A stretch of DNA of 64,000 nucleotides from Norana najaformis (Eukaryota; Annelida; Clitellata; Crassiclitellata; Hormogastridae), in contig OZ029929.1 in assembly GCA_964023275.1 (NCBI GenBank), forward strand, positions 6,487,935 through 6,551,934, written 5' to 3'. Below the pieces are notes generated by a model. That model saw only the letters and a program-made list of their open reading frames with translations. It was not told where the DNA came from and searched no databases. A program made the translations under genes and the position numbers. Below are positions 24,801 through 58,170 of the stretch, one piece after another; positions within the stretch are counted from its first letter, which is position 1; the number at the start of each line of letters is the position of its first letter.

Positions 24801-27800
24801 TGAAAGAGTTGTGTCTTTAGTTTAGACCTGAATGACATCAAAGAATTGACAGAACGAACTGGATAGTGACTTCCAAACCTTTGGACCAACTACCGATAAG
24901 GCACGAAAGCCCAACACTGTTCAGATACGGGGTACAGCAAGAGTCACAGTTTCCATTGGTCGAGTGCAATATCTGTTATTATGGCATCAGCATGAAACAT
25001 AGATAGGTTGGCTGATTTAAATATATTACTTTGTGAACTAAAAGACAAATCTTGAAATGAATTCTTTGCTCATTGGGCACCCAGTGTAATGAATGTAATA
25101 TTGGCTTACTGGCCTAGTTAGCTACAGCAGTAAGAGCGTACGCCTAGGAAGCCTCGGTGCGTGAGGATCCCAGGTTCGCGTCCCGGTCGTGGCTTATTTC
25201 AGAGATTTGAATCTCGGGCTAGTACGGTCCGTGCACGGGGACCTTAAATGGCGTGTAGCGGTGGTGAAGGATCTCACCCATGCGCGAGTGAAATCCATAT
25301 GATCGCTTTAGAAAAACGTGTACAATTTACAATTTTTTTTAATATACTGATATTTAGAGGTCTTTTTATGACTGCAACTGATTCTAGAATTCCATGTAAC
25401 TTTTTAACAGATATTCAGTGATGGCTGGTACTCCTGACAAGATCCTTGAATATCTTCTGGAAACACGAATTGGAAAGGCTTGCGACTCAGCTGGTATGTT
25501 CTGTCAACAACATTTTCCATTTATATTTGTCGGAAGTGTAGCTGTTTTACAAATCAGTAGTTCTCATACATTTCGGTTGTTTTTGATAACTGATTCCCTT
25601 GTAATATTTTGTAATGTATTGGCAAAAGACGTTTGTATAGCTCCATTTTACAAGACTAATGATAATACAATAGTTTTGGTGTTTAGTGCTTTTACTGTCA
25701 GAGGGGTAGTCTCCACATGTTTTTTCCTTTGAAAATTTACAGTGTATTTCATATGACCATCAAATTTTTCATTTGATGATGATCTTAGCTTTTTCCATTT
25801 GTCAGTTGTTACCCTGGCTGTCTTTTCTAAATTCGTGGTACATTGCTGTATGCATCTCAGTGTGTTGCACCGTTTCTTAGTACTTAGTTGGCTTCTAAAC
25901 ATGATCACATCATCCCAGTTCTTAAATGGTTGCATTGGCTCCCTGTTGAGCAGAGAATTAAATGCGAAATTAGTGTAATTACCTACAAGACATGGCATTC
26001 AGGTAACTGCAATACCTTCAAAATATGCTTACCCCTCGGACCTAGCGTTACTCCATTAATTACTGTTATTTATTATTATTATTATTATTTCTGCATTTAT
26101 TAAGTGCCACTCTCTACCCACTAAGCTTCAACAGGTGGTGCTGAGCAATTGTGAGTAAAGGACTTGCTCAAAGTCCTTATGCATTAACCGTCTCAGGAGA
26201 AAGTCTTGAACTGTACTCTCTGCATTACAAGCTGAGCACTCTAACCTACCTGCTGCCATGCCACTAAGCCCTCTGATTGTCTCTTTCTTGCTGTGGCTCG
26301 AGTGAATGCTATTCTCAGAAGCAGTTTTCCTGTTGCTGTACCAACAGTACGGGATACATTTCCACAATCTGTTCACACTTGTGGGTCTTTAGTGTCTTTC
26401 CATTCTCAACTGAAGACATTTTTCAACATGCTTATCCTCCTTGGGCTGCCTTTCTGTCTTATCAGACGGTTTTTGGGGAGCCATCGATTGATGCTTAGTG
26501 CATTACTATAATGGCGCTATAGAAGTTATAAACTAATGAGCAGATAATTAAATGCAATTATTATTATTGTTTCATGGTAGGTTGGATTACAGGCAATATA
26601 TTTCTAGGTAGCTGGTCATTGTTTTTGTTGTTGTGGTTGTTGTTGATGATGATTGTTTTGTTGGAGGTGCATAATAAATACCTTTTCTCTTGGTATTGTC
26701 TTTTAGATACATTCTGTGAAGACTTTCTCCTGACCCACATCATCTTCATGCCAAATAATCACCTGGGCCCAACGCTAATGGCTCAATATCCTTGTCGCTG
26801 ATTTTAGTTGGAATGCAGGATAATTGATTTCTTCAAGAAATACCATTAACAGCTGTGATATACGGTAGCTTGATGTAAACAAACGTTTGGAGTCTGGTTA
26901 CCAGTATATTACATGTGAGATTTCATGAAAACGTCTAAATTAAGGTAAGGTAAGCTAATTGTTTATTTCACATTTCCATCAACATTAGCATTAACAGAAT
27001 GCTGGTTTTAAAATGGTGATAGAAACAAAATCATGAACAGCATCAATAATCCTTAGTGTCATAGTCCGATGGATTGAAGTATTTTGACTACACTTCAATG
27101 CTGCTTTTAATTTGCGCTTTAAGCAAAGGCTTCTTAATCCACAGGACCAGTTCAGTGACTGTTTAGCATTTCTTTAAAGTTATGGACGTTGTTGTTTAGT
27201 TGTATATAACATATGATATTAGATGCAGGGGTGATAGAAAATCCAGTAGCAATCAGCCACTATACCCATTCATTCATTCGTTCATTCGTTCAGAGCACTT
27301 ATAAAGCACCTCTTCTAGGTGGTTACTCAGAAGTGCTTCCAGCCTGGAAAAGAGAGAACAATTTTCAAGTACTGGTAGCAGCATTCCTGTCCAGAAGAGT
27401 CAGATTCAGAGGAAGAGAATTCCAGGTAGATGGCCCGACTACAACGAAGCTGCAGTGTACCATTGTTGAAACATTCACAGTCTAAACTGTGGATGGGTGT
27501 TGAACACAATTAGACTTTTAGCTGGTTGAATGCTGGCTATTGTGCAGACATTAGTTCAGAAGTAGCTTTCCTTATCTATTTACTTATCATGCGGACGTGA
27601 CTTCCGGTAGAGCGAACTCTGATTCGCAGGAGTACGCAGTGACGAACAAGCGCCAGGTGATCCATTTTGTCTGGGAATGGTGCCAGACGATTGGAGAGGC
27701 TTTCTGGGAGGACAAGACAATACATGCCTTTCTTGAGGTAAAGTTTTCTCCACTTTCCATGTCCTCCATGTCATCCTGATTAGTATTAGTTATTCAGATT

Positions 27801-30800
27801 AGCAACAGGTTAGGATCAGCTGTTAACGGTAAGACCATTAATGTGGAACAGCAGTAAATCATTTCTTGGAACACAAATGTATGAAGGTCGTGCTTGGTCA
27901 AAACGGTGTTACTCAACAGTTGAATCAATTACTTTGGAAGGTAAGATAAGGTAAAGTACCTTTTGCACACATGTGCTTCTGTCATCAAGCAGTAGAATTT
28001 TGGCACCGGCACGATAGTGGAAGTAAACATCAAGTCTTACAATGCACTAGTCTTGCGTCCAAAACCTTAAAATTCGTCAGTTTGTCAGCTCAAGGGCCAA
28101 AGAAAGGGAAATGATCGAGTTCCTCCTTTGAGTTCCCCTACCGCATTGAGGGCTTTTGCTTATTTTACCTTTTAAGTGTGCTTTACAGCACAGTTAATGC
28201 ACAGAATATCAGGACACGAGTCGAATGAACGGAATTGTATAATTCCTCATGGATCTCAACTAGTTTTGTCCAATAGATTTTGGTTTTGGAATGCAAGTTT
28301 TGACCAACGATTGATGTCCTGTGCATTGTGATAATGGCACTATAGAAGTTACAGAATAATGCACTTCTAATCACTGAATGTGTAAAGGGCATAAAAAATT
28401 TTAGTGCAACATTTCTTTTAGTACTTGTAGCACCTAACAGTACAAAGTTGCTGAAGAAATCTGTTAACAGATGGTTCCTTACATGTGTGTGCAACTTACT
28501 TGTTCCTCTAATAGGAACTTGAAAATGCGGTCGTTGAGGACAGCCAGATATACAGCAACCTTGAGGACATAACTATTCTTCAAAATGTTCTCCAGAGACG
28601 GCATAGGTATGTTAATTTATGTTAATTTATGTGTCTGATTTTGCATCTGCCTGATAAGTCACTTTGCTGATCAGATTATAGCAAGTCGGGTCAAACTTCA
28701 CAACATTAACCTCACTAGCTGTTTGATACTAGCTCAGTTTTTGCAGACAAAACCAACTTAGTAATGGCCTGTTACCAAAACTTGGATCCAGTTTCATACT
28801 GGTCTTCTTGCTACTGACCCATCTCGATACTGGCAATTTAATATGTGTATGAACCCAACCTGACATTGGGAATTATTATACTGATCAAGTCTGATTTGAT
28901 AGTGACCTAATTTGATATGTATATGAACCCAGTCTGATACTGACCCAACCTGTTACTAATGCAACTTGACATTGTCCCAACCTTCTGCTCACGCAGCTTA
29001 CTACAGATATAACTGTATACTAAAACAATCTGCTATTTACCCAAACTGATTTTGACCTGGCCTCACATGGACCTGACCCAAATCAGGCGTTTTTGTCTTT
29101 TCTTTTTGTGATGGGTTCAGTGAAGTGAGAACATCTCGCCACGGCAAAAGTCACTCTCCGCTTCACCGAGCATCACGCAGCCTTTCTTGCAGTATTGACG
29201 AAGATGACCTCAACCATCGTCAGCCTATCAGAGTCAGTGACCTGAGTATGTACCAGATTCACTGAGAGTTCTTTTATCACTGACCTATGACAGCTGCTAT
29301 CTAGCAAGAATCAGTAACTCAGTAATTGGTAGCCAGTCGGAGTCAGTGACTTTCCTGAGCTATTAATCTAATTATATGTGAGGTCAGACTGACAAAAGTG
29401 AGCAAGGCAAAAGCACATGGACCTAAACACCTAGGAGGTTTTGAATTTGTGCCTATCAAAATGCAATTATTGTATTTAGTAACTTATATAGCGCTTCTTA
29501 CAGAACAAACTACTGAAAGGCGCTTCCAGCGTGAGAACCCCGGGGAAATAAGAACGTCTTTAAACAACGAGCTGCTCAGCTCTATCACCAACAGAGACCC
29601 TTGCACGAAACAAAGGCGAAAGTCCATTCAACAGAGATGGGCCAATAACAGCAAAAGCCGTCTGCTGCAATATTATTAAGGCAATGCTTCCTTCCTCTGA
29701 TGATGATATGACAATGATGATGTTCATGGTGGTATAAAAGTGATGGTCAGAAGAACTTTGTGCAAACTCTCAGTTTTTTTGATGTCTTTATTCAGATCTG
29801 TTCAAGATCTTCTGTGCCGACCACACATACATCACTCTGAAGCTGCGCATGGACACAACAGTAGGTACCATCATCTCACACGCTGCCACCAAACTCAGTC
29901 TGGGAGATTCCTCGCTCGTCCTGTGCGAGGTCAAGTCCAACGGAGGTCAGTATCTATGCATCGAGGTAATTATAATAGCACCTCTTAAGTAGCTCTCAGA
30001 AGCGGTGGAAAGTGCATGTGATGCTTCATGCCTTCACCACATGCTGTTCTAAAAAGCATGTTTGTATGGTGTAAGGTCTTTTAGCTGAAGAACAACGAGA
30101 GTGTAGTTGAAATTCAACAGCAGTGAAATTTGTTCATATGGCTGCTTGGTTTGACAGTGACTGTCCATGACCATGTGATCACACAATGCGCAGGGACTCT
30201 GCTTGAAATTGGGTACTAATGCTGCTGAGAAGAGCGGTCTCTTAAACTAATCCGTAGGTGCAGCCATGGGTATAAGGTATCAGCAAAGAGCACAGTCAGC
30301 ATACTCATTTTATAGTTGAGTTCCCTATAGGGTGCTAATGGAACAGAATTTTGTCATGGTAGAGATTTGAAGCCCAGACCTCTGGGTTTACAGTGCAACA
30401 CACTGCTAGATCCTTGCACAACCACTAATGCTGCTAAGCTTTGCAAGAATAAAACAGCAATAAATATTGAATGCTGTCTCTTTCCGTGATACCTTTTCAT
30501 TGCCAGATATTGACGAGTCTTATCCAGTCCAGATATATTACCTTCTCTCCAGACTGATTTGTCCAGCCCTTTGATGCATAACACCTCAGGGTAAATTAAG
30601 TGAATTAATAAATACCAGTGATTGAAGTCTGTTGTGTTTTGAACAGAGCGTGTAGTGTTTAACGAGAATGATCTGTGCGTTACGAGTGGAATGAGTATCA
30701 ACGGTCGACTGTTTATCAGCCCAAGAGAACATCTAGATGCCTTGGTCAGCTGATCCTTAGCTGTCAATCAAGTCATTAGTCAATCATTCGATCGGTATTA

Positions 30801-33800
30801 CCAATGTAAAAAGTGCTTTAAATAAATAAATAATTAAATAATTAATTAATTAAGGAAAGGTTGTCCTGTTGGTAGATTGCTATTGTTGTGTTTGTGCTTA
30901 TCTGAAAGATTCTTCAATCCCAGAACCATTGTTCATTGGTTGATAATCTAGTCAGTCATACAGTCAGGTAAATAAGTGGTTGAATCTGCAATCACTGAGA
31001 TTTAGGTTTGCCATCAATGATTGATGCCTGGTGCATTATGGTGTTGCCTCTATGGAAGTGACTAGATGAGATTGGATTCTCACTACGCTATCATATTGGC
31101 AATTCATTGTTTAGTCATAGAGCCATGTCTGATTGTTGAATTGCTGTTTTCGAGTATCCACTTCAGCTGATTCATCCTTCACCCCGATGTACACCTTCAT
31201 TAGTTACCGGTTTCAACAATGGTCCTCATTGGCATAATATACTGTGATAAGGTAATCACTCAATGTCAATGATGGTCCTCCAAATTATAGTCCTGTAATT
31301 GAAAACTTGGATAGGGTGGGAAAATACAGCAATCCGTCAACCAGACAGCAGTTTGTTAAAGGTATGAGGGCTAAGCAAGAAATTGTCATATTTACATGAC
31401 ATGCAAAAGTTCAAACCAAAACTTAGCCTTTACCAGGTGACAAGCCTAGCTTTTAACGCTGCCCAAAATCATCTGTAAATTTCTGGTTATGTTGTGTTTC
31501 CTTACTTAGCTTAATTGTAATAATGTAATGTAATGTAATCGAAAATTTATAAAGCGCCAGTTCAAGATAGACTCCTCAGAGGCGCTGCCGGCCCGACAAC
31601 CCAGAAGCACTGGGAAATAGGAAGGTCTTCAAGCACATGCAGAAAAGAGAGGGAGAGAGACTAAGAAGTTCCTGGTGCCCATTCCAAAAAACAGGACCAA
31701 CCACAGCAAAACTTCTGTGCTGGGCCGTAGCTGCCGAACAAAGTAGTCTGTGGCCCGGAATGGAGGAGGCCAATAATAAGGGACTTTTTGAGTTGCATGT
31801 ATTAAGGAACTGCATATCTAGAATTCGTTTGTTGCTTGCTTTCAGACACCTTTGCCTGAACAGGAGGGTCCATCAACCGGGTCAAGCCACTTTCTGGAGG
31901 TGCTAAGTTCACGAGAGGTTGCCTATCACATGACCTGTTATGACTGGCAGCTCCTGAACTGTGTCCACGAGGCAAGGATTTTTGATGACTGGTTAAATGA
32001 GCAACTTAACGCAGTTGCTCACATGCTCACTGTTCTATTCTGTTACCCAACTATGTATGTATGTATGTATTATCAGGCTTTTTAATTAGTGCCTTTTAAG
32101 AACCTTGCAAAGAAGCTTTATAAATAGCCAGATGTGTTATCTACCCTGGTCTTGCCTGCTTGTTCTTGTAGTATGAGCTCATATACCTTGTCTTTGGACG
32201 GTCTAACTTTGGTCGAATCACTGCGAACCTTGACCTCTTCCTTCGTCGTTTCAATGAAGTTCAGTTTTGGGTCGTCACCGAAATGTGCCTTACAACGTCG
32301 ATTAGCAAACGAATACAACTGCTCAGGAAGTTCATCAAGATTGCTGCCTAGTAATTGTCATCTAATCCTTGATAAAATGACTTTATCTACACTGTGAACA
32401 AAACACGAACCCTTCAAAGTATTTTTCCAATAACTAATGGAATTTTTTATGCAAGTTTAATCCAAACTAGATGAATATTAATTAGTTCAGTGATTACAGA
32501 TTTAATGTAACTGTATTTTAATTATCTATATGTTCAAAATGTCCTCCCTTCGCCTCAGCAGAGGTGTGTTGCTGAAAATGTTTAACAGTTTTGTAATCTT
32601 CACTGGATACCATTTTTTTCAAGGGGATCTTTACAATTGACGTCACTGTAATGTTACTTTTTAACAGGGACTGTTATTATTTTACACTTAGTTGCTACTA
32701 TAGTCGCAGTTAAAACAGTCTTAATTTATTTAAACTTTTGAATATTTAGATAGTTAATTTTAAAATAATTCAAGGGTTTGTTGTTCCTGTTCACAGTGTT
32801 TGATCTACTTCAATCTTTTCATATTCAGTGTTGGTTGCTATGTAATGAATAATCTGGAATAAGTATTATCTCAACCATAATGTAAAATTTAAACTTTTCT
32901 TTAATCAAAAGCTCATTATAAATCTTGCTGCAGAATGTTTAAAATATACTTGAATTTGTAATGTTGATGAGTCATACAGACATGCCTCAGATATGCTGCT
33001 GTTACTTATGTAAAAAGTGCTTTAAATAATTATTTAATTAAGGAAAGGTTATCCTGTTGGTAGATTGCTATTGTTATGTTTGTGCTTATTCTGAAAGATT
33101 CTTCAATCCCAGAACCATTGTTCAGATTACAGAACAGACAGTATGATTGAATTAGTGTGTTAAATTAGTGGTAACTGATTTATTGTACTAAATTAGTAGT
33201 AGTTAACTAACTAGTAACTCCTACTCTGTCTTTGCTGTGGAAAACAGATCACTCAACAGAATCCCATAGTTCGATGCTTCAATCAATACTGCACTTTGCT
33301 GCAATACACTGCTTACTCAGTAGAACTTTTTTGTCATTCATTTGATTACTTTTCTTTTCTTGAAGCTGCGAAGACTATCAGAACCTCAACACGTTCTTTG
33401 CAATTATCCTTGGCCTAAGTAACATTGCGGTTTCACGTCTGTCGCAGACATGGGAGGTATGACTATGACTTTTTGGTTATGTGCATCGATAGCTTGACTT
33501 CAGCAGCACGTTCTCCATCATTTTCTACCAATAACCTAGCTTCATCATCATCATTCCTTTTCTGTTCACTATTTTCATTGTTCATTCTCCAAATAAAACC
33601 GTACCGTTAAATGACAGCCATTGGAGTGGCTTTGCTCTGTCCTTGAAGGACGAACAATGATGGTAGACACTGGCTTTACTCATAAGTCGGCATGGGCATC
33701 TGTTTCATTCGGTGTCTCACAGGGCTCAGTTCTTGGGCCACTATTGTACATTCCTTACACGACCGACCTGACCAAGATCATCACTGCTTTAAAAGCCCGG

Positions 33801-36706: not shown

Positions 36707-38392
36707 TAGAGCAACAAGAAGCAATGCTCTATGAAGTCCATCTCATTAGTCGTCCATCTGACTACCAGGTACTCAAATGCCTGACCACTGTGCCAGATGC
36801 TGGAGAAGCTTCAACCGTTTTGGTACCAGCTGCAGATGACCTGAACCTAAAGGGTTAATGAATGAATGAGGTCATCCTTGTGGTTCAGTTAGGCTTCTGT
36901 TCCTTTAAGTTTACCCCATTTCCGTTTTTCTTGAGCCCCTTTCTTCTAGTTTAGGCTCCTTTTCTATGTGTTTAAGCTGTCTTTTTGCTTCACTTGGTTA
37001 ATTATGTTGTTTTTAATTTTGTTTAAGCTTTGTCCAGGGTTCAGAACCCAGTCGTTTGAAAGTAGCAATTCTTGTTAAGCTATAAAGAACATTCTGGTTT
37101 TTAGATAGCTGTTGTTGAGTCTGTGCTTAAGCCGAAGGATTTTGAAACCAATGGACTGTGAGGACAGTAGTTTTTCATTGAAGAGGGTACCTTACATAGT
37201 GAATTGACTGCAGAATCACAAGGAGATTATTTTTACATAGTATGGATTGGCAGAATGAGATTGTTGGCTGTATAAGCTGTGATCATAGGGTACAATAATT
37301 TTATGAAGAGTAGCATAGACTGTACATGATTGTGCTTTCAGCTGTTTCTGTGAAAATTCTCAGTACTTTTGAACAATTTCCCTACCCAAGGTAGAACCAG
37401 TTGCAGTGGTTTGCCCTTGTTTTAATTATAACCTGTGCTTATCAAAGGACAAGGGGTGGGCGATTGTGAATGTTTTGGCCTATAGATCCCACTGTGTGCA
37501 TTTTGAAATTAAGAATTTGTTGTTGAGTTGCTTATTTGTAAAGATAGTCCTGTTGTTAGATTGCTGTGTTGCCGTCAAAAGGTCCCTCAGCCACAACCAA
37601 GACCATACATACCTCTGAGAACTACAGAACTGATGGAGGTGCCTAATAATCATGCTTTCTTGTTTTCATCAACTTGTATATGTAGTTTTATTGGCTCAAC
37701 ATTTTGCTGCTACTTTCCTTTCCCTGTCATTGTTTAAATTGTCTATAATTTCCCTATGTTTTAGATATTCAAAATATTGTAATTGTAATCATGTATGTTA
37801 GAAGTTACTAATTGCTATATGTTGAATATTTTGTTTATATTCATTTACATTTTGTCTATAATTCCCCGTTGTAGTTTATGTGTTGAATATGCTGTTTATC
37901 TGTTGTGTTAGTACCATTTATTCCCTAGGTTGTATATGTTTCCTATGTGGTATTTGCATTGTTTCCATACCTATGTGTTTTGTGTAGAACTGCTGTTTGT
38001 TGACTTAACACTACTGACTGTCTCATGTATCTTGTTCCGGTAATAGTGATGCCTGTGCTGCTTTTTTTCCCAGTACATTTCAACTGTGCTGTTGCTTGTA
38101 TGTTCCATGTGCCGTGTTAATATTATTTGCCACTTAGGTTGTGTCAGTATTACCTATATGTTGTGTTCAGACAGACTATGTTCCTGTACATTTTGTTAAT
38201 AATTCCAGTTTAGTGTGTGTATAAATGATGTATTATGTTGTTGCCATTCCCATGTGTTTACATATTAGTAATGTTGCTTATATACTGTTTATACTTCCCC
38301 ATTTGTGTGTATTGAGCTACCCTGCCCGTAGCACTGTGTGTTCATCACTTTTATATCAATTGAATTGTAACAGTGAAGATCTCAGTATTTTG

Positions 38393-38398
38393 AATAAA
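38393..38398 (+). terminator. Candidate poly(A) signal of EPAC copy 1
   Basis: AATAAA about 1.7 kb after the stop, at the end of a T-rich, repeat-poor stretch (36707-38400) that resembles a long 3' UTR. The same hexamer is at 54512 in copy 2. Position-based inference. Confidence 0.35.
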
Positions 38399-39466
38399 AT
38401 GCTGTCTAAACAGCTCCATGACAATATTTGTTAAAAATCCTTCATCATGTGATATGGTCAGAATGTTGCCAAACCATACAACGTGCAAACGTTTCCAGAT
38501 GTACTGTTTGCCTGTATGTCTAACATGGTGGCCACTAGTGTCTGCTCTTAGCAAGCAGTCATTATGGTAGAGAGGCTGGTTCAAGCCTCCCTTTTTTCTA
38601 AGCATCCCCCTATTTTCCATCTGTCCCAAGCTGCTTCTACTTCCTACCCAATCACCCCATTCCTTGCTAGTAATTTAAGGTGGTACAAAGGCAACATTTG
38701 TATAGCATACTTATGTGAGGTACTTAAAAGGCGCTATATTAAGTGTCCTGGTGCAATTGAACCCTTATAAAGTCTTCTTGAGTTGCCTACAGGTAATAAA
38801 CAGCCACTTGTGTTGCCATTCCTACCTTACGTTACCATGATACCAAGACAAACACGTGCATCACATTTCAATATATTTACTAATAATTATTACATTTGCA
38901 TTAATACATGTTTTTATTTAGTAACAATTATACTTTTTATTAATAGTTTCTGTTTATTATTAAGCATTGCAGGCAGAGTGTTACTTATAGGCAGTTATAA
39001 TAAACATCTCAAACAAAACTGATATATCTGGTATATAAAAAGTCTTTCAAAAAATATAATGCAGTTCAAAAGCATCATTTAATCCAAAGCTGCATTCTGA
39101 AGAATCTGAAAAAAATTCATAGAAAAACTGTCTGCCCTGTTTGGAGATCTAATTTGCACGTTAAGCCATGCGCAATACTCTTAATTTAAAAACTGGAAAG
39201 TGTATTTATTATTTTGAATGCTAATGTCTGAACAGCTTTATCTAAAAATCCTTCATGCCCAGACCCCTGAGGACTTAGAAAATAATGACCAAATAATACA
39301 GGTACTATAAGACTTTGTGTCAATGTAACAATGAAGTAAACCAGGCGCCTGCTCATTTGAAACATAGTGTACATTACAACCAATAAGATTTGCCATGCAA
39401 AATGCTAAAATGTTTGCTTTGGATTTCGGAAATGTATATGAATTTAGGATCCATATGTAAAGCAAT

Positions 39467-39784
39467 TCGGAATGCCTGCTGAGGCTATGCCATCAGTGGT
39501 GAAGGTCTTGGCCGAGGTACCACCTAGGGCGCTTCACGAGGTGGACAGGCTCAGCGGGAACCCTGAAACAGCTGGCTAACGTGGGCGGCACCGCCGCCTC
39601 TGGTGCCACAAGGATATCAGAGCCAGTTCCAAGCCTGGAACTCATTTCATAGAGAAGTGCAAGGGTCGAACGGATGGGTGCAGATACTCCATTCATAAAG
39701 GAAACAGACAAAGGAAATCCAATGCAACCATGCAGTGGACACCTACGGGCTCTTGGCCCATGGATCATAATGATGATGATGATG
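39467..39784 (+). mobile_element. Unit-1-specific retroposon, 318 bp, with 12-bp target-site duplication
   Basis: Flanked by atgtaaagcaat at 39455-39466 and 39785-39796; the site is empty in unit 2 (near 55569-55580). Ends in an (ATG)n tail, so forward orientation. GC-rich body; class not assigned (RTE-like end or SINE). Confidence 0.85.
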
Positions 39785-42356: not shown

Positions 42357-42435
42357 ATACATTCTGTGAGGACTTTCTCCTGACCCACATCATCTTCATG
42401 CCAAATAATCACCTGGGCCCAACGCTAATGGCTCA
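42357..42435 (+). CDS. EPAC exon 14, copy 2
   Basis: Same as copy 1 with one silent change (GAA to GAG). Preceded by gtcttttag and followed by the same U12 donor atatccttg. Confidence 0.88.
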
Positions 42436-45400: not shown

Positions 45401-48400
45401 ATCGAAGTCAGTGACTTTCCTGAGCTATTAATCTAATTATATGTGAGGGCAGACTGACAAAAGTGAGCAAGACAAAAGCACATGGACCTAATCACCTAAG
45501 AGGTTTTGAATTTGTGCCTATCAAAATGCAATTATTGTATTTAGTAACTTATATAGCGCTTCATACAGAACAAACTACTGAAAGGCACTTCCAGCATGAG
45601 AACCCTGGGGAAATAAGAACGTCTTTAAACAACGAGCTGCTCAGCTCTATCACCAACAGAGACCCTTGCACGAAACACGAAAGGCGAAAGTCCATTCAAC
45701 AGAGATGGGCCAATAACAGCAAAAGCCTTCTGCTGCAATATTATTAAGGCGATGCTTCCTTCCTCTGATGATGATATGACAATGATGATGTTCATGGTGG
45801 TATAAAAGTGATGGTCAGAAGGACTTTGTGCAAACTCTCAGTTTTTTTTATGTCTTTATTCAGATCTGTTCAAGATCTTCTGTGCCGACCACACATACAT
45901 CACTCTGAAGCTGCGCATGGACACAACAGTAGGTACCATCATCTCACACGCTGCCACCAAACTCAGTCTGGGAGATTCCTCGCTCGTCCTGTGCGAGGTC
46001 AAGTCCAACGGAGGTCAGTATCTATGCATCGAGGTAATTATAATAGCACCTCTTAAGTAGCTCTCAGAAGCGGTGGAAAGTGCATGTGATGCTTCATGCC
46101 TTCACCACATGCTGTTCTAAAAAGCATGTTTGTATGGTGTAAGGTCTTTTAGCTGAAGAACAACGAGAGTGTAGTTGAAATTCAACAGCTGTGAAATTTG
46201 TTCATATGGCTGCTTGGTTTGACAGTGACTGTCCATGACCATGTGATCACACAATGTGCAGGGACTCTGCTTGAAACTGGGTACCAATGCTGCTGAGAAG
46301 AGCGGTCTCTTAAACTAATCCATAGGTGCAGCCGTGGGTATAAGGTATCAGCAAAGAGCGCAGTCAGCATACTCATTTTATAGTTGAGTTCCCTAGAGGG
46401 TGCTAATGGAACAGAGTTTTGTCATGGCAGGGATTTGAAGCCCAGACCCCTGGGTTTACAGTGCAACACACCACTAGACCCTTGCACACCCACTAATGCT
46501 GCTAAGCTTTGCAAGAATAAAACAGCAATAAATATTGAATGCTGTCTCTTTCCGTGATACCTTTTCATTGCCAGGTATTGACAAGTCTTATCTAGTCCAG
46601 ATATATTACCTTCTCTCCAGACTGATTTGTCCAGCCCTTTGATGTATGACACCTCAGGGTAAATTAAGTGAATTAATAAATACCAGTGATTGAAGTCTGT
46701 TGTGTTTTGAACAGAGCGTGTAGTGTTTAACGAGAATGATCTGTGCGTTACGAGTGGAATGAGTATCAACGGTCGACTGTTTATCAGCCCAAGAGAACAT
46801 CTAGATGCCTTGGTCAGCTGATCCTTAGCTGTCAATCAAGTCATTAGTCAATCATTCGATCGGTATTACCAATGTAAAAAGTGCTTTAAATAAATAAATA
46901 ATTAAATAATTAATTAATTAAGGAAAGGTTGTCCTGTTGGTAGATTGCTATTGTTGTGTTTGTGCTTATCTGAAAGATTCTTCAATCCCAGAACCATTGT
47001 TCATTGGTTGATAATCTAGTCAGTCATACAGTCAGGTAAATAAGTGGTTGAATCTGCAATCACTGAGATTTAGGTTTGCCATCAATGATTGATGCCTGGT
47101 GTATTATGATGTTGCCTCTATGGAAGTGACTAGATGAGATTGGATTCTCACTACGCTATCATATTGGCAATTCGTTGTTTAGCCATAGAGACATGTCTGA
47201 TTGTTGAATTGCTGTTTTCGAGTATCCACTTCAGCTGATTCATCCTTCACCCCGATGTACACCTTCATTAGTTACCGGTTTCAACAATGGTCCTCATTGG
47301 CATAATATACTGTGATAAGGTAATCACTCAATGTCAATGATGGTCCTCCAAATTATAGTCCTGTAATTGAAAACTTGGATAGGGTGGGAAAATACAGCAA
47401 TCCGTCAACCAGACAGCAGTTTGTTAAAGGTATGAGGGCTAAGCAAGAAATTGTCATTTTTACATGACATGCAAAAGTTCAAACCAAAACTTAGCCTTTA
47501 CCAGGTGACAAGCCTAGCTTTTAACGCTGCCCAAAATCATCTGTAAATTTCTGGTTATGTTGTGTCTCCTTACTTAGCTTAATTGTAATAATGTAATGTA
47601 ATGTAATCAAAAATTTATAAAGCGCCAGTTCAAGATAGACTCCTCAGAGGCGCTGCCGGCCCGACAACCCAGAAGCACTGGGAAATAGGAAGGTCTTCAA
47701 GCACATGCAGAAAAGAGAGGGAGAGAGACTAAGAAGTTCCTGGTGCCCATTCCAAAAAGCGGGACCAACCACAGCAAAGCTTCTGCGCTGGGCCGTAGCT
47801 GTTCGGACCGATGGGACAAGCAAGTCCCCCCGTACCGCCGAACAAAGTATACTGTGGCCCGGAATGGAGGAGGCCAATAATAAGGGACTTTTTGAGTTGC
47901 ATATATTAAGGAACTGCATATCTAGAATTCGTTTGTTGCTTGCTTTCAGACACCATTGCCTGAACAGGAGGGTCCATCAACCGGGTCAAGCCACTTTCTG
48001 GAGGTGCTAAGTTCACGAGAGGTTGCCTATCACATGACCTGTTATGACTGGCAGCTCCTGAACTGTGTCCACGAGGCAAGGATTTTTGATGACTGGTTAA
48101 ATGAGCAACTTAACGCAGTTGCTCACATGCTCAATGTTCTGCTCTGTTGCCCAACTATGTATGTATGTATGTATTATCAGGCTTTTTAATTAGTGCCTTT
48201 TAAGAACCTTGCAAAGAAGCTTTATAAATAGCCAGGTGTGTTATCTACCCTGGTCTTGCCTGCTTGTTCTTGTAGTATGAGCTCATATACCTTGTCTTTG
48301 GACGGTCTAACTTTGGTCGAATCACTGCGAACCTTGACCTCTTCCTTCGTCGTTTCAATGAAGTTCAGTTTTGGGTCGTCACCGAAATGTGCCTTACAAC

Positions 48401-51400
48401 GTCGATTAGCAAACGAATACAACTGCTCAGGAAGTTCATCAAGATTGCTGCCTAGTAATTGTCATCTAATCCTTGATAAAATGACTTTATCTACACTGTG
48501 AACAAAACACGAACCCTTCAAAGTATTTTTCCAATAACTAATGGAATTTTTTATGCAAGTTTAATCCAAACTAGATGAATATTAATTAGTTCAGTGATTA
48601 CAGATTTAATGTAACTGTATTTTAATTATCTATATGTTCAAAATGTCCTCCCTTCGCCTCAGCAGAGGTGTGTTGCTGAAAATGTTTAACAGTTTTGTAA
48701 TCTTCACTGGATACCATTTTTTTCAAGGGGATCTTTACAATTGACGTCACTGTAATGTTACTTTTTAACAGGGACTGTTATTATTTTACACTTAGTTGCT
48801 ACTATAGTCGCAGTTAAAACAGTCTTAATTTATTTAAACTTTTGAATATTTAGATAGTTAATTTTAAAATAATTCAAGGGTTTGTTGTTCCTGTTCACAG
48901 TGTTTGATCTACTTCAATCTTTTCATATTCAGTGTTGGTTGCTATGTAATGAATAATCTGGAATAAGTATTATCTCAACCATAATGTAAAATTTAAACTT
49001 TTCTTTAATCAAAAGCTCATTATAAATCTTGCTGCAGAATGTTTAAAATATACTTGAATTTGTAATGTTGATGAGTCATACAGACATGCCTCAGATATGC
49101 TGCTGTTACTTATGTAAAAAGTGCTTTAAATAATTATTTAATTAAGGAAAGGTTATCCTGTTGGTAGATTGCTATTGTTATGTTTGTGCTTATTCTGAAA
49201 GATTCTTCAATCCCAGAACCATTGTTCAGATTACAGAACAGACAGTATGATTGAATTAGTGTGTTAAATTAGTGGTAACTGATTTAATGTACTAAATTAG
49301 TAGCAGTTAACTAACTAGTAACTCCTACTCTGTCTTTGCTGTGGAAAACAGATCACTCAACAGAATCCCATAGTTCGATGCTTCAATCAATACTGCACTT
49401 TGCTGCAATACACTGCTTACTCGGTAGAACTTTTTTGTCATTCATTTGATTACTTTTCTTTTCTTGAAGCTGCAAAGACTATCAGAACCTCAACACGTTC
49501 TTTGCAATTATCCTTGGCCTAAGTAACATTGCGGTTTCACGTCTGTCGCAGACATGGGAGGTATGACTATGACTTTTTGGTTATGTGCATCGATAGCTTG
49601 ACTTCAGCAGCACGTTCTCCATCATTTTCTACCAGTAACCTAGCTTCATCATCATCATTGCCATGTTCCTTTTCTGTTCACTATTTTCATTGTTCATTCT
49701 CCAAATAAAACCGTTCTGTTAAATGACAGCCATTGGAGTGGCTTTGCTCTGTCCTTGAAGGACGAACAATGATGGTAGACACTGGCTTTACTCATAAGTC
49801 GGCATGGGCATCTGTTTCGTTCGGTGTCTCACAGGGCTCAGTCCTTGGGCCACTACTGTACATTCCTTACACGACCAACCTGACCAAGATCATCACTGCT
49901 TTAAAAGCCCGGGTTCATAAATATGCCAATGATGGTCCAGCTGTATCTGACATGCCACCCACCTGACACGCGGGTTTGTGGAGCTCTGGATTCCTGACAA
50001 AACGATCAGCTGGGGTCAATGGGCAATGGGACATGTTTGTCTCGCGCCTCATATGACGATGCTTTCTTGTGTATTTGGACTGACCTTCTGGAACAATCTT
50101 CCCCTGAAACTACATACTTTTCGGAGAGAGACAGCTGAAGAAACATTTGCAACTTATATCGCACCTTTTTAGAACTGTCACATAGCCATGTTTTAGCATG
50201 ACTGCGAGGTTCTTCAGGTGCTTTGTAAATAGCCACATCCATACATACATACATTCATACATACATATGTACATACATCATTACATTCATATATACATAC
50301 ATATATACAAACATACATACATACATACCTACATACATTCATACATACATCCGTATATATACATACATTCAACATACAATTCAACATACATACAAACATA
50401 AAACGATGTTGACATACGGCATAAAAGAAAGGAGCCATTACCATAATTTACTGCTGAACCATTTGTTGCCAATAACTACTGAGTGCATTAAACTTCAGAA
50501 GCTGCCAAACAAGTTTAGAAAGATGTTCGTGGATTTTGAAATGATGATGGATCCATCTCGAAATCATCGAGCTTACCGTCTGGCCGTTGTTAAAATTCTG
50601 CCACCAATCATTCCGTTCATGCCACTGCTCATGAAAGGTTGTCATTAATTGTTGTTATTGTTATTTTTACTGTTTTGATTGTTGTTTCTAACTGATCATT
50701 TTTATGAACGAAATAATACCGTTGTTTAGTTGACTTCGTTGCAGTAACTGTAAATATCATTTTTATACACATTATGAGTGGGATGCAGTGGTGTAGTGAT
50801 ATAGTCTGTGCTTCGTAATCATAGGGTCTTGGGTTCAAATCTGCCCAGGCCATTGTGTAGCGACCTTGGACAAGTTGTTCACCCACAGTTGTCTGTGAGG
50901 AAGGCAACAGGAAACCACCTAACTCATCTCATCCCCAGGTGGCATAAAGCCAAAGGACCTGCCTTCAGGCAGGGAACTCATCATCGTGGTCACACATTAT
51001 GATGAACATCATCATCGTTTATTACTCATTTATTATTGTTGTCATCAACCCCTGTGCAGCTGCATTTTAGGACAAAGACATTAGCTGATTTAGCCTGCTT
51101 TTTGATAACTTTTCAGATATGACTTTCACACACGAAGGCAACAAAACCCATTTTGATGGACTCGTCAACTTTGAGAAAATGGTAATTCTGTTTTGGTTAC
51201 TTGCTGCATATGTATTTGACACTCAAATGAGAAGCATAGGGGTACTTAGCAATGAGAAGCATAGGGGTACTTAGCAACTATACATTTATGTACTGCTGCT
51301 TGTAAGAAGTCGACCTAAGTTCCTGAAGCTGTCTGTATTTACTGATCTTGATTATACTTTTTCCAGCATATGATTGCACAGACGTTGAGGATGATCAAAT

Positions 51401-52834
51401 TCTGTCGCAGCAAAGCGCTTGGTACGTATAACAATGTCTGTGTTTTAAAATAAGATGATTAATGTACTGTAATAAACTTACATCCCTCCTAATCAAACAT
51501 TACATTACATTGCAGGGACTGACAGGTTCTTATTGGACACCGGCTGCTTGTCTGTCCTCCCACTTCAAAATTTCTGCAAGAATCATGAACTCATAACTGT
51601 GTATTCTTGTTCTCATTCCTTAAACATTTTGGGGCAGTTAAGCCGGAGGCTTCTTTCAAAGGTTAAAGAATGTTAGGCTAACAGTCTCAGAGCTTCTATG
51701 TTATGCAGTGGATCAGAGGAATATAGTAAAATTGCAGCCTGGAACAGATTGTGATTAAATGGAAGTGACCATGTGTGATATGTACTGTCTGGTTATAACT
51801 ATAACTATAATGCATTGACTACATGTATATATTGTATTTATCTGTTATTTATGCAGCCCCTTTAAAGACATCTGAAGCCTGCAAGCAGACATCTATGTTA
51901 CTTTAAGAGCCATATTGTGCATATAATTATGGAGCACAGTGGAATTATGGACTGTTGACCATATTTTAAGACAAACCATGCATATGAGTAGTCTTGCCGC
52001 ATTGGAGTTTGCTGTTATCAGACATTATTTGAAGAGAGTGGAACGGTTAAGTGGTTGTGTGCATTTGTTTCTCTGGTTTAACATTTTAGACTTTGATCCA
52101 CCGCCGCTCGTAAAGACAACACAGGATGTCCGAAGCTACATCAGGTTTTTTCATTTGTTCATTTATGGCTACTGGTGTAATGTATAGTAACACAACTGGT
52201 CAACACTGAAGACTGATTTCACCTTGAAGCAATATGCAATAATTTATTTATTTATTATTATTTTTGATTTATTATCTATTTATTATCCTCTTTCGTTAGG
52301 ACAAAAGCACTTGTGACTACCAGGTAGATTAGATTATATCAGGTGATTGAAATGCTGACTTAAAAATGGATTTTGACTGTTGTTGATGCAAGCTAGGGTG
52401 CGTTAGCATCTTTTGCAGGATTTTGAGTCCATTTGTTTGTTGTCAGGCCTTGAGCATGCCCTCTGCTTCTTAGATTTGGCTCTGCTAGGCCATAGTTACC
52501 TATGTGCTGTTTGTACTGAGCTTACCTGCCTATCTTTGGTAGTCATCAGGGCTTTTGTTTCTGTGATTCTGAGTGTTGTGAGAAAGTCAACAGTTCATTT
52601 TCAACAGATGCAACCTGTTACGAGAGAAAGTGGAGTTGCTTGATTTCGTTTGTACTACAGTGTGCTATTGTTGATAGGGGCATGCACGGCAGTAAATGAG
52701 CGATTGCCTTATCCTGCCTAACTTTACCTTGCCTTCTCAATCTACACTGTTTATATTTTTTCAGAAGTCTCAACGTTATCGACAACCAGCGCATCCTCAC
52801 ACGGCTCTCCCATCGTTTGGAGCCACGCAGGTGA
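42357..52834 (+). CDS. Second copy of EPAC exons 14-27 (REM-RA-CDC25 half-gene)
   Basis: Fourteen exons with the same lengths (1478 bases in total), phases and splice sites as copy 1, all open, ending at the same TGA (52832-52834). By eye I count about eight base differences from copy 1 in the coding part, three of them in two replaced residues (Glu to Lys in exon 22, Pro to Ala in exon 25). It lacks cNBD-A, DEP and cNBD-B, so alone it would encode an unregulated Rap GEF. It could instead be joined to exon 13 as an alternative catalytic half, since phases fit. No promoter is evident upstream. It may also be a misplaced second haplotype of copy 1. Confidence 0.85.
42436..43237 (+). other. U12-type AT-AC intron, copy 2
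   Basis: All U12 signals kept: 5' atatccttg, branch ttccttatc at 43222-43230, 3' end tttac. The surrounding intron differs from copy 1 by several substitutions and small indels. Confidence 0.86.
43238..43391 (+). CDS. EPAC exon 15, copy 2
   Basis: Identical in sequence to copy 1 exon 15; REM helices; donor ttgag|gtaaag. Confidence 0.88.
44087..44478 (+). mobile_element. Unit-2-specific LINE insertion, 392 bp, with 9-bp target-site duplication
   Basis: Flanked by cttgtagca at 44078-44086 and 44479-44487; empty in unit 1 (near 28425-28435). Encodes [38 protein letters not shown] and [17 protein letters not shown], the C terminus of a non-LTR ORF2. Strongly 5'-truncated and little decayed, so recent. 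Confidence 0.88.
44570..44661 (+). CDS. EPAC exon 16, copy 2
   Basis: Two silent changes from copy 1 (GCG to GCA, CGG to CGA). A 392-bp LINE insertion ends about 90 bases upstream; it lies in the intron and leaves the acceptor intact. Confidence 0.87.
45186..45310 (+). CDS. EPAC exon 17, copy 2
   Basis: One silent change from copy 1 (CCT to CCG). Ser/Arg-rich REM-RA linker. Confidence 0.87.
45535..45750 (-). mobile_element. LINE 3' end (reverse), duplication unit 2
   Basis: Second copy of 29465-29670 with a few substitutions. Confidence 0.45.
45864..46013 (+). CDS. EPAC exon 18, copy 2
   Basis: RA domain; no difference from copy 1 seen. Acceptor tttattcag, donor cggag|gtcagt. Confidence 0.88.
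46715..46812 (+). CDS. EPAC exon 19, copy 2
   Basis: End of RA domain; no difference from copy 1 seen. Acceptor ttttgaacag, donor ccttg|gtcagc. Confidence 0.88.
47595..47900 (-). mobile_element. LINE 3' end (reverse), duplication unit 2
   Basis: Second copy of 31525-31790, keeping 36 bp (about 47803-47838) absent from unit 1; these extend the LINE reading with [18 protein letters not shown]. Confidence 0.65.
47950..48075 (+). CDS. EPAC exon 20, copy 2; GC donor
   Basis: Start of CDC25 domain; one silent change (CCT to CCA). The GC donor cgag|gcaagg is kept. Confidence 0.88.
48276..48454 (+). CDS. EPAC exon 21, copy 2
   Basis: CDC25 core; identical to copy 1, including [19 protein letters not shown]. 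Confidence 0.9.
49470..49560 (+). CDS. EPAC exon 22, copy 2
   Basis: One replacement against copy 1: CKDYQNLN instead of CEDYQNLN. The Lys matches vertebrate EPAC2 (HCKEYKNLN). Confidence 0.88.
49720..50170 (+). mobile_element. LINE reverse-transcriptase remnant, duplication unit 2
   Basis: Second copy of 33610-34060; the catalytic box reads YAND here. CATA microsatellite follows at about 50234-50395, with a different length from unit 1. Confidence 0.7.
50499..50637 (+). CDS. EPAC exon 23, copy 2
   Basis: Carries [11 protein letters not shown]; coding part the same as copy 1. The intron just before the acceptor lost a short stretch relative to copy 1, but ttcag is kept. Confidence 0.88.
50780..51015 (+). 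mobile_element. tRNA-derived SINE, duplication unit 2
   Basis: Second copy of the SINE at 34675-34910. Confidence 0.6.
51117..51181 (+). CDS. EPAC exon 24, copy 2
   Basis: Identical to copy 1: [20 protein letters not shown]. Acceptor acttttcag, donor aaatg|gtaatt. Confidence 0.88.
51367..51421 (+). CDS. EPAC exon 25, copy 2
   Basis: Reads FCRSKAL where copy 1 reads FCRSKPL (two adjacent-codon base changes, CCA to GCG). Donor changes from gtatgt to gtacgt, still acceptable. Confidence 0.86.
52090..52144 (+). CDS. EPAC exon 26, copy 2
   Basis: Identical to copy 1 ([16 protein letters not shown]). Acceptor aacattttag, donor atcag|gttttt. Confidence 0.87.
52765..52834 (+). CDS. EPAC exon 27, copy 2: C terminus and stop
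   Basis: Identical to copy 1, ending [11 protein letters not shown]. Acceptor ttttttcag. Confidence 0.88.
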
Positions 52835-54511
52835 TAGAGCAACAAGAAGCAATGCTCTGTGAAGTCCATCTCATTAGTCGTCCATCTGACTATCAGGTAC
52901 TCAAATGCCTGACCACTGTGCCAGATGCTGGAGAAGCTTCAACCGTTTTGGTACCAGCTGCAGATGACCTGAACCTAAAAGGTTAATGAATGAATGAGGT
53001 CATCCTTGTGGTTCAGTTAGGCTTCTGTTCCTTTAAGTTTACCCCATTTCCGTTTTTCTTGAGCCCCTTTCTTCTAGTTTAGGCTCCTTTTCTATGTGTT
53101 TAAGCTGTCTTTTTGCTTCACTTGGTTAATTATGTTGTTTTTAATTTTGTTTAAGCTTTGTCCAGGGTTCAGAACCCAGTCGTTTGAAAGTAGCAATTCT
53201 TGTTAAGCTATAAAGAACATTCTGGTTGTTAGATAGCTGTTGTTGAGTCTGTGCTTAAGCCGAAGGATTTTGAAACCAATGGACTGTGAGGACAGTAGTT
53301 TTTCATTAAAGAGGGTACCTTACATAGTGAATTGACTGCAGAATCACAAGGAGATTATTTTTACATAGTATGGATTGGCAGAATGAGATTGTTGGCTGTA
53401 TAAGCTGTGATCATAGGGTACAATAATTTTATGAAGAGTAGCATAGGCTGTACATGATTGTGCTTTCAGCTGTTTCTGTGAAAATTCTCAGTAGTTTTGA
53501 ACAATTTCCCTACCCAAGGTAGAACCAGTTGCAGTGGTTTGCCCTTGTTTTAATTATAACCTGTGCTTATCAAAGGACAAGGGGTGGGCGATTGTGAATG
53601 TTTTGGCCTATAAATCCCACTGTGTGCATTTTGAAATTAAGAATTTGTTGTTGAGTTGCTTATTTGTAAAGATAGTCCTGTTGTTAGATTGCTGTGTTGC
53701 CGTCAAAAGGTCCCTCAGCCACAACCAAGACCATACATACCTCTGAGAACTACAGAACTGATGGAGGTGCCTAACAATCATCATGCTTTCTTGTTTTCAT
53801 CAACTTGTATATGTAGTTTTATTGGCTCAACATTTTGCTGCTATTTTCCTTTCCCAGTCATTGTTTAAATTGTCTATAATTTCCCTGTGTTTCAGATATT
53901 CAAAATATTGTAATTGTAATCATGTATGTTAGAAGTTACTAATTGCTATATGTTGAATATTTTGTTTATATTCATTTACGTTTTGTCTATAATTCCCCGT
54001 TGTAGTTTATGTGTTGAATATGCTGTTTATCTGTTGTGTTAGTACCATTTATTCCCTAGGTTGTATATGTTTCCTATGTGGTATTTGCATTGTTTCCATA
54101 CCTATGTGTTTTGTGTAGAACTGCTGTTTGTTGACTTAATACTACTGACTGTCTCATGTATCTTGTTCCGGTAATAGTGATCCCTGTGCTGCTTTTTTCC
54201 CAGTACATTTCAACTTGTATGTTCCATGTGCCGTGTTAATATTATTTGCCACTTAGGTTGTGTCAGTATTACCTATATGTTGTGTTCAGACAGACTGTGT
54301 TCCTGTACATTTTGTTAATAATTCCAGTTTAGTGTGTGTATAAATGATGTATTATGTTGTTGCCATTCCCATGTGTTTACGTATTAGTAATGTTGCTTAT
54401 CTACCGTTTATACTTCCCCATTTGTGTGTATTGAGCTACCCTGCCCGTAGCACTGTGTGTTCATCACTTTTATATCAATTGAATTGTAACAGTGAAGATC
54501 TCAGTATTTTG

Positions 54512-54517
54512 AATAAA
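54512..54517 (+). terminator. Candidate poly(A) signal, copy 2
   Basis: AATAAA in the same place as in copy 1, about 1.7 kb after the stop. Confidence 0.3.
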
Positions 54518-57049
54518 ATGCTGTCTGAACAGCTCCATGACAATGTTTGTTAAAAATCCTTCATCATGTGATATGGTCAGAATGTTGCCAAACCATACAA
54601 CGTGCAAACGTTTCCAGATGTACTGTTTGTCTGTATGTCTAACATGGTGGCCACTAGTGTCTGCTCTTAGCAAGCAGTCATTATGGTAGAGAGTGCTGGT
54701 TCAAGCCTCCTTTTTTCTAAGCATCCCCCTATTTTCCATCTGTCCCAAGCTGCTTCTACTTCCTACCCAATCACCCCATTCCTTGCTAGTAATTTAAGGT
54801 GGTACAAAGGCAACATTTGTATAGCATACTTATGTGAGGTACTTAAAAGGCGCTATATTAAGTCTCCTGATGCAATTGTACCCTTATAAAGTCTTCTTGA
54901 GTTGCCTACAGGGAATAAACAGCCACTTGTGTTGCCAATCCTATCTTATGTTACCATGATACCAAGACAAACACGTGCACCACATTTCAATATATTTACT
55001 AATAATTATTATATGTGCATTAATACATGTTTTTATTTAGTAACAATTATACTTTTTATTAATAGTTTCTGTTTATTATTAAGCATTGCAGGCAGAGTGT
55101 TACTTATAGGCAGTTATAATAAACATCTCAAACAAAACTGATCTATCTAGTATATAAAAAGTCTTTCAAAAAATATAATCCAAAGCTGCATTCTGAAGAA
55201 TCTGAAAAAAATTCATAGAAAAATTGTCTGCCCTGTTTGGAGATCTAATTTGCACGTCATCTGAAACATTCGTTAAGCCACGCGCAATACTCTTAATTTA
55301 AAAATTGGAAAGTATATTTATTATTTTGAATGCTAATGTCTCAACAGCTTTATCTAAAAATCCTTCATGCCCAGACCCCTGAGGAGTTAGAAAATAACGA
55401 CCAACTAATACAGGTACTATAAGACTTTGTGTCAATGTAACAATGAAGTAAACTAGGTGCCTGCTCATTTGAAACATGGTGTACATTACAACCAATAAGA
55501 TTTGCCATGCAAAATGCTAAAATGTTTGCTTTGGATTTCGGAAATATATGTGAATTTAGGATCCATATGTAAAGCAATACAACCAGAAATTTATATATCT
55601 CGAGAGGCTCTCAAAAGTTGCCAATACAGAGCAAAATCATATGATGTAAGTTGAACTTGTGTGTTAGGTTTTATCAAGCAAAACAGATATGATCCATCTC
55701 CAGCAGACTATTCTATGAGACAGTACTTATAAATTTATGAGACACCTGTATCCTAGATTGTGGTAATATCATCATAAGAAGAGTTGTTTTTTTCTTAAAT
55801 ATGGCATTCAAAACGACTGCCTGCATTCCAACAGCAGTTTATAACTTGAAATACAACAGACAACTTGTCTAGTAAAAGCAGTCACTATGGCCTGCCTATT
55901 AAACACATATCTGATTGCAGGAAAGCCTAAAGAGCCAGACAGCATTGTGACTGTTGTATGCAGACATTAATTTTATAATGGAAAAGGAACAAATTTTCCA
56001 GCCATCAGAAAGTCCAGTTTAAAAAGTTTGAATCCAGACTTATATTCTCCAGCCAAATTTAAAATTTAATGCTCCAAAGATTTATGTAGTACATTCTTGC
56101 AGCCAGTGCTATGGAAACATCAGAGAAATCTGTCAACAATAATGTTACATATGATTTTGCTTGACATTTATATGAAGCCTATTCAGAGCCTCTCAGACTT
56201 CTTAAAAGACTTCAGAACAACCACAGACAAGAATGATAAAAACATTAAAGCTAACACATACTCTGTGCATTGGAGGATAACTTTTGGTATCTTCTACTGA
56301 TGGAAAATCTTATGGTTTTGGTTTTGCCCGCACTCAGCCACTGCCCTACTACACGCACACCTACAAGAAATGTCTTCTAACAGCACACGGTAATGTAGCT
56401 AAAAGGCTCACAGACAAAAATATGGCTGTAAAGGAATTCATCATGGCCTACACAAAACTTTTTAAGTATGCATGTATATTTGCATAATAACAATAAATAA
56501 TTGTAGCAATTTCTAAGATGCTGGCAGCTAATGAACAAGCCATCAATGTGCATCAAAATCAAGGCAAAAAACAGGCCAATTTCCCTAAGGTCAATCCAGA
56601 GAGACAGAGTCTAATGCAGGTAAGCCTGTCGAAAGAGGTAGGTCAGTCAAGACTGGAATGATATCAAAAACAGAGCTGAATGAACAGAGAGTAACAAAGA
56701 TTAGGACAAGCATCAGAAACTGAGCCTTTACACAGAACAGTTAGGCCAACAAGAGTACATAGGCCTCTGTATGTATTCAGATGCTACTATGGCTCATGTT
56801 AAGCCTCTGGGGTGTTGTATGCATGGCTGTCATGTTAAAAGTCAAGATCAACAAAAATGTTTCTTCATAATTGGACAACATTGGTGTCAGAGTTATGATC
56901 ACGGTGTGCTACCAAACAATCTATGTCTTTAAACATTCAGGCCACACTACTTTTGAGAGTGCAAGTGGTCTGGCTATGAATCTAGGTGGTCCATCCATTA
57001 TACCTAGACTGGTTGTGGTGTCAAAGACATCCTGTTAAACCAGAATGGT

Positions 57050-57490
57050 TTATGAAGAATCACTGGGGCTGTTCTTGCAGTGGACCAGGGTTCCAGACAG
57101 AGCGTGCCAAAGGTAGATGTTCTTGGTGTCAGAAGTTGGATACTCGTAGGCCTCTTGAACAGACCCGGTCCGGACAAGATTAACACCGGACCGACGGTCT
57201 TTGCTAGCCTTCTGAGTCACAGGCACATACCCGGCAACGTATCCTCTGTTGATTGCCTTAGTACTTGCTGTCTGCTGGTTCCACTGTTGTGGTGATCGTT
57301 CTAATGCTTGTGAAGCAGAGGTTTGTTTGTGTTTGCGGGGTGCTCCACCAGGGAACGCATCCGAGGTTGAGTAGTGGGTGCGGAGTGGGTTGTTTGTGGT
57401 TGAATTTCGCAAGCTGTAGCCATAGACCTCATTAGTTGTGCAGGGACGGTCTTTTGCCCAGCTGTAGTAAGCAGGCATGTGCGATGGCAT
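57050..57490 (-). CDS. Uncharacterised 146-codon ORF, copy 2
   Basis: Second copy of the 41280-41720 frame, same length and open. I see four replaced residues (Thr to Ala, Ser to Leu, Gly to Ser, His to Arg) and two silent changes, so constraint between the two copies is not obvious. Faces left, toward EPAC copy 2, with the RIIa-like gene 1.7 kb to its right in the other direction; a shared upstream region with that gene is possible. Confidence 0.45.
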   Translation of the reverse strand: MPSHMPAYYSWAKDRPCTTNEVYGYSLRNSTTNNPLRTHYSTSDAFPGGAPRKHKQTSASQALERSPQQWNQQTASTKAINRGYVAGYVPVTQKASKDRRSGVNLVRTGSVQEAYEYPTSDTKNIYLWHALSGTLVHCKNSPSDSS

Positions 57491-57964
57491 CTTGGAAGTC
57501 TACGACAAAGGATGCAGTGTCTATAATAGTTTCCTCAGGTTAATCGAATGACTTGTAATGCATGAATCATTAAACAGTTATTCTAATGATTCCAATGTGT
57601 GAAGCATTAAACAGTTAACATAATGCAATGTTCTGTTATCATGTACAATTTATATAGCGCCGCTGTGCATGTCATTATGTACATATTTCAACACACAGTT
57701 ATGTTCTCAATTAAGTAACCGCCACCTAAGCCTATGACATGTAAACATTGGCCACATGTCTTTCCCACTGCCCCAAGCAGATATTGTACCCTGCTACGTT
57801 CGGCCTATGACCCGTTGCTTATCCGTATTCATCCATATTATTTTATCACGTATTTACTTACATCGCAATTCAAACTTTTATTACAGGTTAACTGAACCAA
57901 AAAAGGACTGAAATCATTGAAAGTTTGAAATAATTCATGACAAAGCTGCCATTTTTCAGCTCTA

Positions 57965-58170
57965 GCTGGGAATCTGTTGGTAGGGCTCTGTGTGCGCGCG
58001 CGAGCCTACCACTCCTCTTCTAGTTCTCTGAGCAATGTTTACTAATGGATGAATGTTCTGTTCTTAAAAACATTTTACATCGTTAAGGCTATCGCAAAGA
58101 GCGCCTCTGATTAATTTATCTCGAAGAGGTTTTATACAAATTTCATATCATGATTACGACAACTGTTTTT
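57965..58170 (+). mobile_element. LINE 3' end, GCGCCTCTGATTA family
   Basis: gctgggaatctgttggt, gttctgttcttaaaaac, agagcgcctctgattaattt and ggttttatacaaattt, ending atgattacgac. Confidence 0.6.

Follow-up and report, generated by a model that had tools for sequence, protein, structure and literature searches.

In the genome assembly of the annelid Norana najaformis, an EPAC2/RAPGEF4-type gene has its final 14 coding exons twice in tandem, and we somewhat favor a true young duplication over two haplotypes placed in series. (This judgment covers the duplication being real; we are less sure that both copies are used.) EPAC is a signalling protein whose activity is turned on by cyclic AMP (cAMP). 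The window, by which we mean the whole stretch of 64,000 nucleotides that was analyzed, is C17 6487935-6551934 of a 608 Mb genome in 17 contigs. The finding itself is modest: part of a known gene is duplicated in tandem and intact, which is a known kind of event, and this is confirmed at the level of the assembly.

The two units and their junction

Self-comparison matched 26451-42087 (unit 1) to 42088-57856 (unit 2) as four collinear blocks in direct orientation, with blastn identities of 96.9-97.7% if small gaps are counted. In a global alignment of the units, 14,972 of the 15,232 aligned bases were identical (98.3%) and 260 were mismatched. Chance does not explain so long and so close a match. 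An earlier note on this DNA had described two adjacent units, about 98% alike by eye, and the alignment confirms this to the base. There are 32 indel events between the units, none of them in exons.

As that note had also stated, the units abut without a gap or microhomology: not one base is shared on either side of the junction, and there is no N within the window or within the surrounding 160 kb. The junction sequence has a single genome location among the scored matches, and both of its halves recur at the unit ends. Across the 160 kb around the units we found no other direct pair above 2 kb, and in genome-wide searches the scored matches (40 candidates per search) included no further copy of the unit ends.

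The 14 coding exons are shared by both units (1,478 bp in each, stop codon included; Table 1), and each unit extends about 5 kb beyond the stop codon. These exons, numbered 14-27 in the earlier note and said there to be intact, are indeed so in both units: there are no frameshifts, early stops, or lost splice dinucleotides, which rules out decay of unit 2. Exon 13, the last exon present only once, ends in phase 1 and joins in frame to exon 14 of either unit. The suggestion that the gene could give two isoforms is therefore structurally possible, but it depends on the duplication itself, for which our confidence is only a little better than even. A single long protein with both catalytic halves is disfavored: skipping only the stop exon of unit 1 would break the frame, because the last-but-one exon ends in phase 2 and exon 14 starts in phase 1. 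Further upstream in unit 1, however, there are four exons with a phase 1 end, and these could in principle be spliced to exon 14 of unit 2.

Identity of the gene and its domains

The matches of the predicted protein identify the gene as EPAC2/RAPGEF4-type, and it is that of a lophotrochozoan. Its top solved-structure matches are EPAC2 structures, which the unit 1 protein also matches, and the best of the listed homologs is a chiton protein with 65% identity to the gene product. A tree built from 27 proteins placed it among lophotrochozoans, outside the supported clade formed by the 12 molluscs used.

Pfam was run on a joined model of 951 residues that leaves out linkers and unmatched exons. 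The regulatory half of this model has two cyclic-nucleotide-binding stretches (PF00027) and DEP (PF00610). REM (RasGEF_N) covers residues 435-538 of the whole model (profile positions 2-105, 44.9 bits), and RasGEF (CDC25-homology, PF00617) is full length, at 176.4 bits in the model with unit 1 and 179 bits with unit 2. Pfam listed no RA domain at E 0.001, but the RA-like stretch could be aligned with EPAC2 structures and with a 120-residue chain from a Rap guanine nucleotide exchange factor (GEF). The regulatory-half coordinates in Table 1 are the extents of tblastn matches, not exon bounds, and the query was a mouse EPAC2 sequence. The first coding exon may be represented by a weak tblastn match of 9 residues (L013:4199, E 4.4), which lies to the left of the window.

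The left edge of the unit cuts REM: the product of a unit alone starts at profile position 24 (2 in the whole model) and scores 31.0 bits instead of 44.9, which is still above the Pfam cut-off of 28.3. Thus, the description of the doubled part as the catalytic half holds only in part, as RasGEF and most of REM are inside the unit but the unit starts within REM, with no clean catalytic boundary. Because REM counts as part of the EPAC catalytic core (PMC3506601), unit 2 alone is not a self-contained catalytic half.

Divergence and constraint

The coding parts of the two units differ at 8 of 1,478 bases, where 27.1 differences would be expected at the non-coding rate (252/13,754; Poisson P = 1.7e-5). 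These differences amount to two amino-acid changes and five silent codons, the latter at 26718, 28527, 28599, 29224, and 31849 in unit 1, and give a non-synonymous divergence (dN) of 0.0017, a synonymous divergence (dS) of 0.0187, and a dN/dS of about 0.09. A single freely drifting copy would be expected to gain about 10.5 amino-acid changes on its own branch, as against the two seen in all, and the probability of at most one change on such a branch is 3e-4. Therefore, both units are constrained, or they are alleles, or they are kept alike by gene conversion.

The two amino-acid changes are at sites of different character. At codon 337 of the unit, which is Glu in unit 1 and Lys in unit 2, the 120 listed homologs (the listed ones of 2,345 matches, mostly vertebrate and including several isoforms of one species) have 118 Lys and 2 Arg, so that the site is basic in 120 of 120; the chiton protein has Arg. 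By contrast, codon 450, where unit 1 has Pro and unit 2 has Ala, is variable, with 61 Pro, 45 Ser, and 4 Ala among the same 120 proteins.

Two alleles or two copies?

The strongest alternative is a false (heterotype) duplication, in which the units are two alleles of one locus that were serialised by the assembler or by gap filling. We regard this as a serious possibility, though at rather less than an even chance. It would imply one ordinary EPAC gene that is heterozygous for Lys/Glu and for two insertions. False exon and gene gains of the same shape are documented in PMC9516828, and the cases described there resemble ours: part of one gene is present in two nearly identical copies, side by side and with allele-like divergence. 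Unlike the gap-bearing duplications described there, ours has no assembly gap between the copies, but according to the same source false heterotype duplications may also occur without one.

Several observations fit alleles and weigh against a real duplication. First, a non-coding divergence of 1.83% and a dN/dS of about 0.09 are what would be expected for alleles in a diverse invertebrate. Second, each unit has an insertion that the other lacks: 330 bp in unit 1 and 401 bp in unit 2. These are the largest length differences between the units, and they are likely to be retroelement insertions because short direct repeats flank both. Third, the non-coding mismatches are patchy, with a variance-to-mean ratio of 1.87, 2.23, and 2.30 at 250, 500, and 1000 bp (values matched or exceeded in 0, 1, and 7 of 1000 shuffles, respectively), and the longest mismatch-free non-coding run, of 851 positions, was reached in 0 of 2000 shuffles. 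(The patchiness test covered 231 mismatches at 13,067 positions, after exclusion of the exons with 10 further bases and of three stretches with repeats or indels, at 34100-34399, 30800-30869, and 39400-39799.) This counts against a real duplication because a single duplication date without conversion gives even divergence. Gene conversion between tandem copies would give the same patchiness, and the longest identical run at all sites (1,050 bp, 32133-33182) could be either a conversion tract or a stretch of recent common ancestry. Finally, the exactness of the unit extents proves nothing, because a single false joint gives identical extents.

On the other side, several observations speak for a real duplication. 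The junction has no gap, overlap, or microhomology, and the outer flanks of the two units do not match each other; by our reasoning a false joint made by an overlap assembler would need such a match. The surrounding 160 kb is free of N, no further copy of the unit ends came up among the scored matches, and both units are open, conserved in their coding parts, and joined in frame by exon 13. Also, Glu at an otherwise always basic site would be odd in a working single-copy gene, whereas eased constraint is expected once a spare copy exists.

How the copies might be used

If the duplication is real, then it may have arisen from a break that was joined without homology and that copied a segment starting in intron 13 and ending about 5 kb beyond the stop codon. 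An origin mediated by repeats was considered and rejected: at E 5 the outer flanks, taken as 2 kb on the far side of each outer break, gave no match to each other, and comparison with the 2 kb before the junction gave only four matches, of 11-17 bases. Unit 1 would be the ordinary 3' half and likely gives the default transcript, because its stop codon and its AATAAA signals come first. Unit 2 would be used when a splice from 25493 to 42357 passes over unit 1 (about 16.9 kb), and the product would be an EPAC that differs at two residues, with Lys in place of Glu at the otherwise always basic site. The few amino-acid changes would then reflect selection that still acts on both copies, or conversion that keeps them alike.

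A real duplication in which only unit 1 is in use is rather doubtful. Transcription would stop after unit 1, and unit 2 would be silent, intact through its youth or through conversion. Indeed, the stop codon and six AATAAA signals of unit 1 (the first at 38393) all precede unit 2, and the clean run that starts at 32133, together with the patchiness, suggests conversion. However, the scarcity of amino-acid changes argues against free drift of a silent copy, unless conversion is frequent, and it is unit 1, rather than unit 2, that has the odd residue.

A full two-cassette gene, in which exon 13 is joined to either of two complete 14-exon 3' halves, both are maintained by selection, and the Glu form differs in function, is an unlikely outcome that we put forward tentatively. 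The gene would then encode two cAMP-regulated Rap GEFs, and the Glu form, with its charge reversal at a site that is basic in all listed EPAC proteins, would have altered exchange activity.

The earlier note had also suggested that a GEF outside cAMP control could come from unit 2, here from a promoter of its own and without the cAMP-binding half; unit 2 does have the RA-like and RasGEF parts and a REM that scores above the cut-off, but its product would lack the start of REM, so this weaker of the note's two ideas has lost ground and is very improbable. (This and the use of unit 1 only are sub-cases of a real duplication, so our estimates overlap.)

Other features of the gene and its surroundings

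The first intron inside each unit has AT-AC ends. U12-type introns have a ATATCCTT donor, a branch motif like TTCCTTRAC, and an AC end. The two copies of this intron have identical ends (donor ATATCCTT, branch-like CTTTCCTTATC, and AC), and both show ATATCCTTGTCG ... CTTTCCTTATCTATTTAC; with a branch motif slightly off the consensus, the intron is predicted from its sequence to be U12-type. Similar U12-type introns are among the examples in PMC7367187. Elsewhere, a GC donor (AG/GCAAGG) at 31972 and 48076, after the exon that ends at 31971, is kept in both units.

A repeat of about 103 bp lies inside unit 1 (30834-30935 and 33022-33124, 96% identity) and recurs in unit 2. On the minus strand, a 146-codon open frame is found in both units with few changes (41280-41720 and 57050-57490); it is likely due to chance, because the units are 98% identical. 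Rfam gave no matches in the window. Between the regulatory-half matches there is a minisatellite at 7405-8616 (64 bp units, 19 copies, 94% alike), and another is at 17420-18106 (36 bp units, 18.7 copies).

Dispersed repeats lie near the breaks. One of about 60 bp starts about 20 bp inside the unit (42108-42168) and has 37 other places among 40 scored matches. A different one, of about 200 bp, is in the left flank (26059-26265), and the right flank has a repeat of about 200 bp at 57945-58157; the two flanking repeats did not match each other in the flank search. It is plausible that the repeats near the left break are parts of long interspersed nuclear elements. To the left of the window, two copies of an element of about 1.45 kb lie in inverted orientation with 96% identity (C17 6465222-6466676 and 6471796-6473238), with a partial copy at 6556762-6557431, which is likely a mobile element.

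Table 1. Positions of the units, exons, and other features in the window.
Feature	Position	Strand	Size	Remarks
Unit 1	26451-42087	+	15,637 bp	self-comparison and alignment
Unit 2	42088-57856	+	15,769 bp	self-comparison and alignment
Junction	42087/42088	.		gap-free; 0 bases of microhomology either side
EPAC regulatory-half matches, single copy	2832-2969, 12159-12242, 13836-13982, 16009-16272, 18155-18337, 19785-19928, 20426-20506, 21650-21724, 22908-22988, 24151-24267	+		tblastn
Exon 13 (numbering of the earlier note)	25411-25493	+		last single-copy exon; phase 1 end; donor GTATGT; codes for REM start
Unit 1 coding exons	26707-26785, 27584-27737, 28515-28606, 29121-29245, 29796-29945, 30647-30744, 31846-31971, 32172-32350, 33366-33456, 34393-34531, 35014-35078, 35238-35292, 35961-36015, 36637-36706	+		last exon with stop
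Unit 2 coding exons	42357-42435, 43238-43391, 44570-44661, 45186-45310, 45864-46013, 46715-46812, 47950-48075, 48276-48454, 49470-49560, 50499-50637, 51117-51181, 51367-51421, 52090-52144, 52765-52834	+		last exon with stop
Predicted U12-type AT-AC intron, unit 1	26786-27583	+	798 bp	first intron inside unit, within REM coding part
Predicted U12-type AT-AC intron, unit 2 copy	42436-43237	+	802 bp	
Codon 337 of unit	unit 1 33370-33372; unit 2 49474-49476	+		GAA (Glu) in unit 1; AAA (Lys) in unit 2
Codon 450 of unit	unit 1 35286-35288; unit 2 51415-51417	+		CCA (Pro) in unit 1; GCG (Ala) in unit 2
Unit-1-only insertion	39455-39784	.	330 bp	followed by repeat of TGTAAAGCAAT
Unit-2-only insertion	44078-44478	.	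401 bp	CTTGTAGCA repeats on both sides

Significance and comparison with known systems

If the duplication is real, then a single-copy signalling enzyme has been caught as it starts to split, with one regulatory half and two catalytic halves, one of which has reversed charge at a site that is otherwise always basic; subfunctionalisation by alternative splicing would be directly testable. If it is not real, then an assembly error has produced a false EPAC gene model whose frames are intact on both sides and which annotation would not notice. A literature search for partial, tandem, or intragenic duplication of EPAC turned up no report among the papers listed, which is not proof of absence.

Partial intragenic duplications with alternative 3' cassettes are a general kind of gene arrangement. 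As in true cases of that kind, a single 5' part here has two 3' parts to which it could be spliced; the putative cassette comprises 14 exons and about 15.7 kb. Among EPAC proteins, the listed homologs (the best 120 of 2,345 matches, from a search in which proteins above about 1,660 residues could not come up as candidates) have 913-1091 residues, as expected with one catalytic half. The gene shares with known EPAC2/RAPGEF4 the domain order of cyclic-nucleotide-binding, DEP, cyclic-nucleotide-binding, REM, RA-like stretch, and RasGEF, but unlike them, it has its last 14 coding exons twice.

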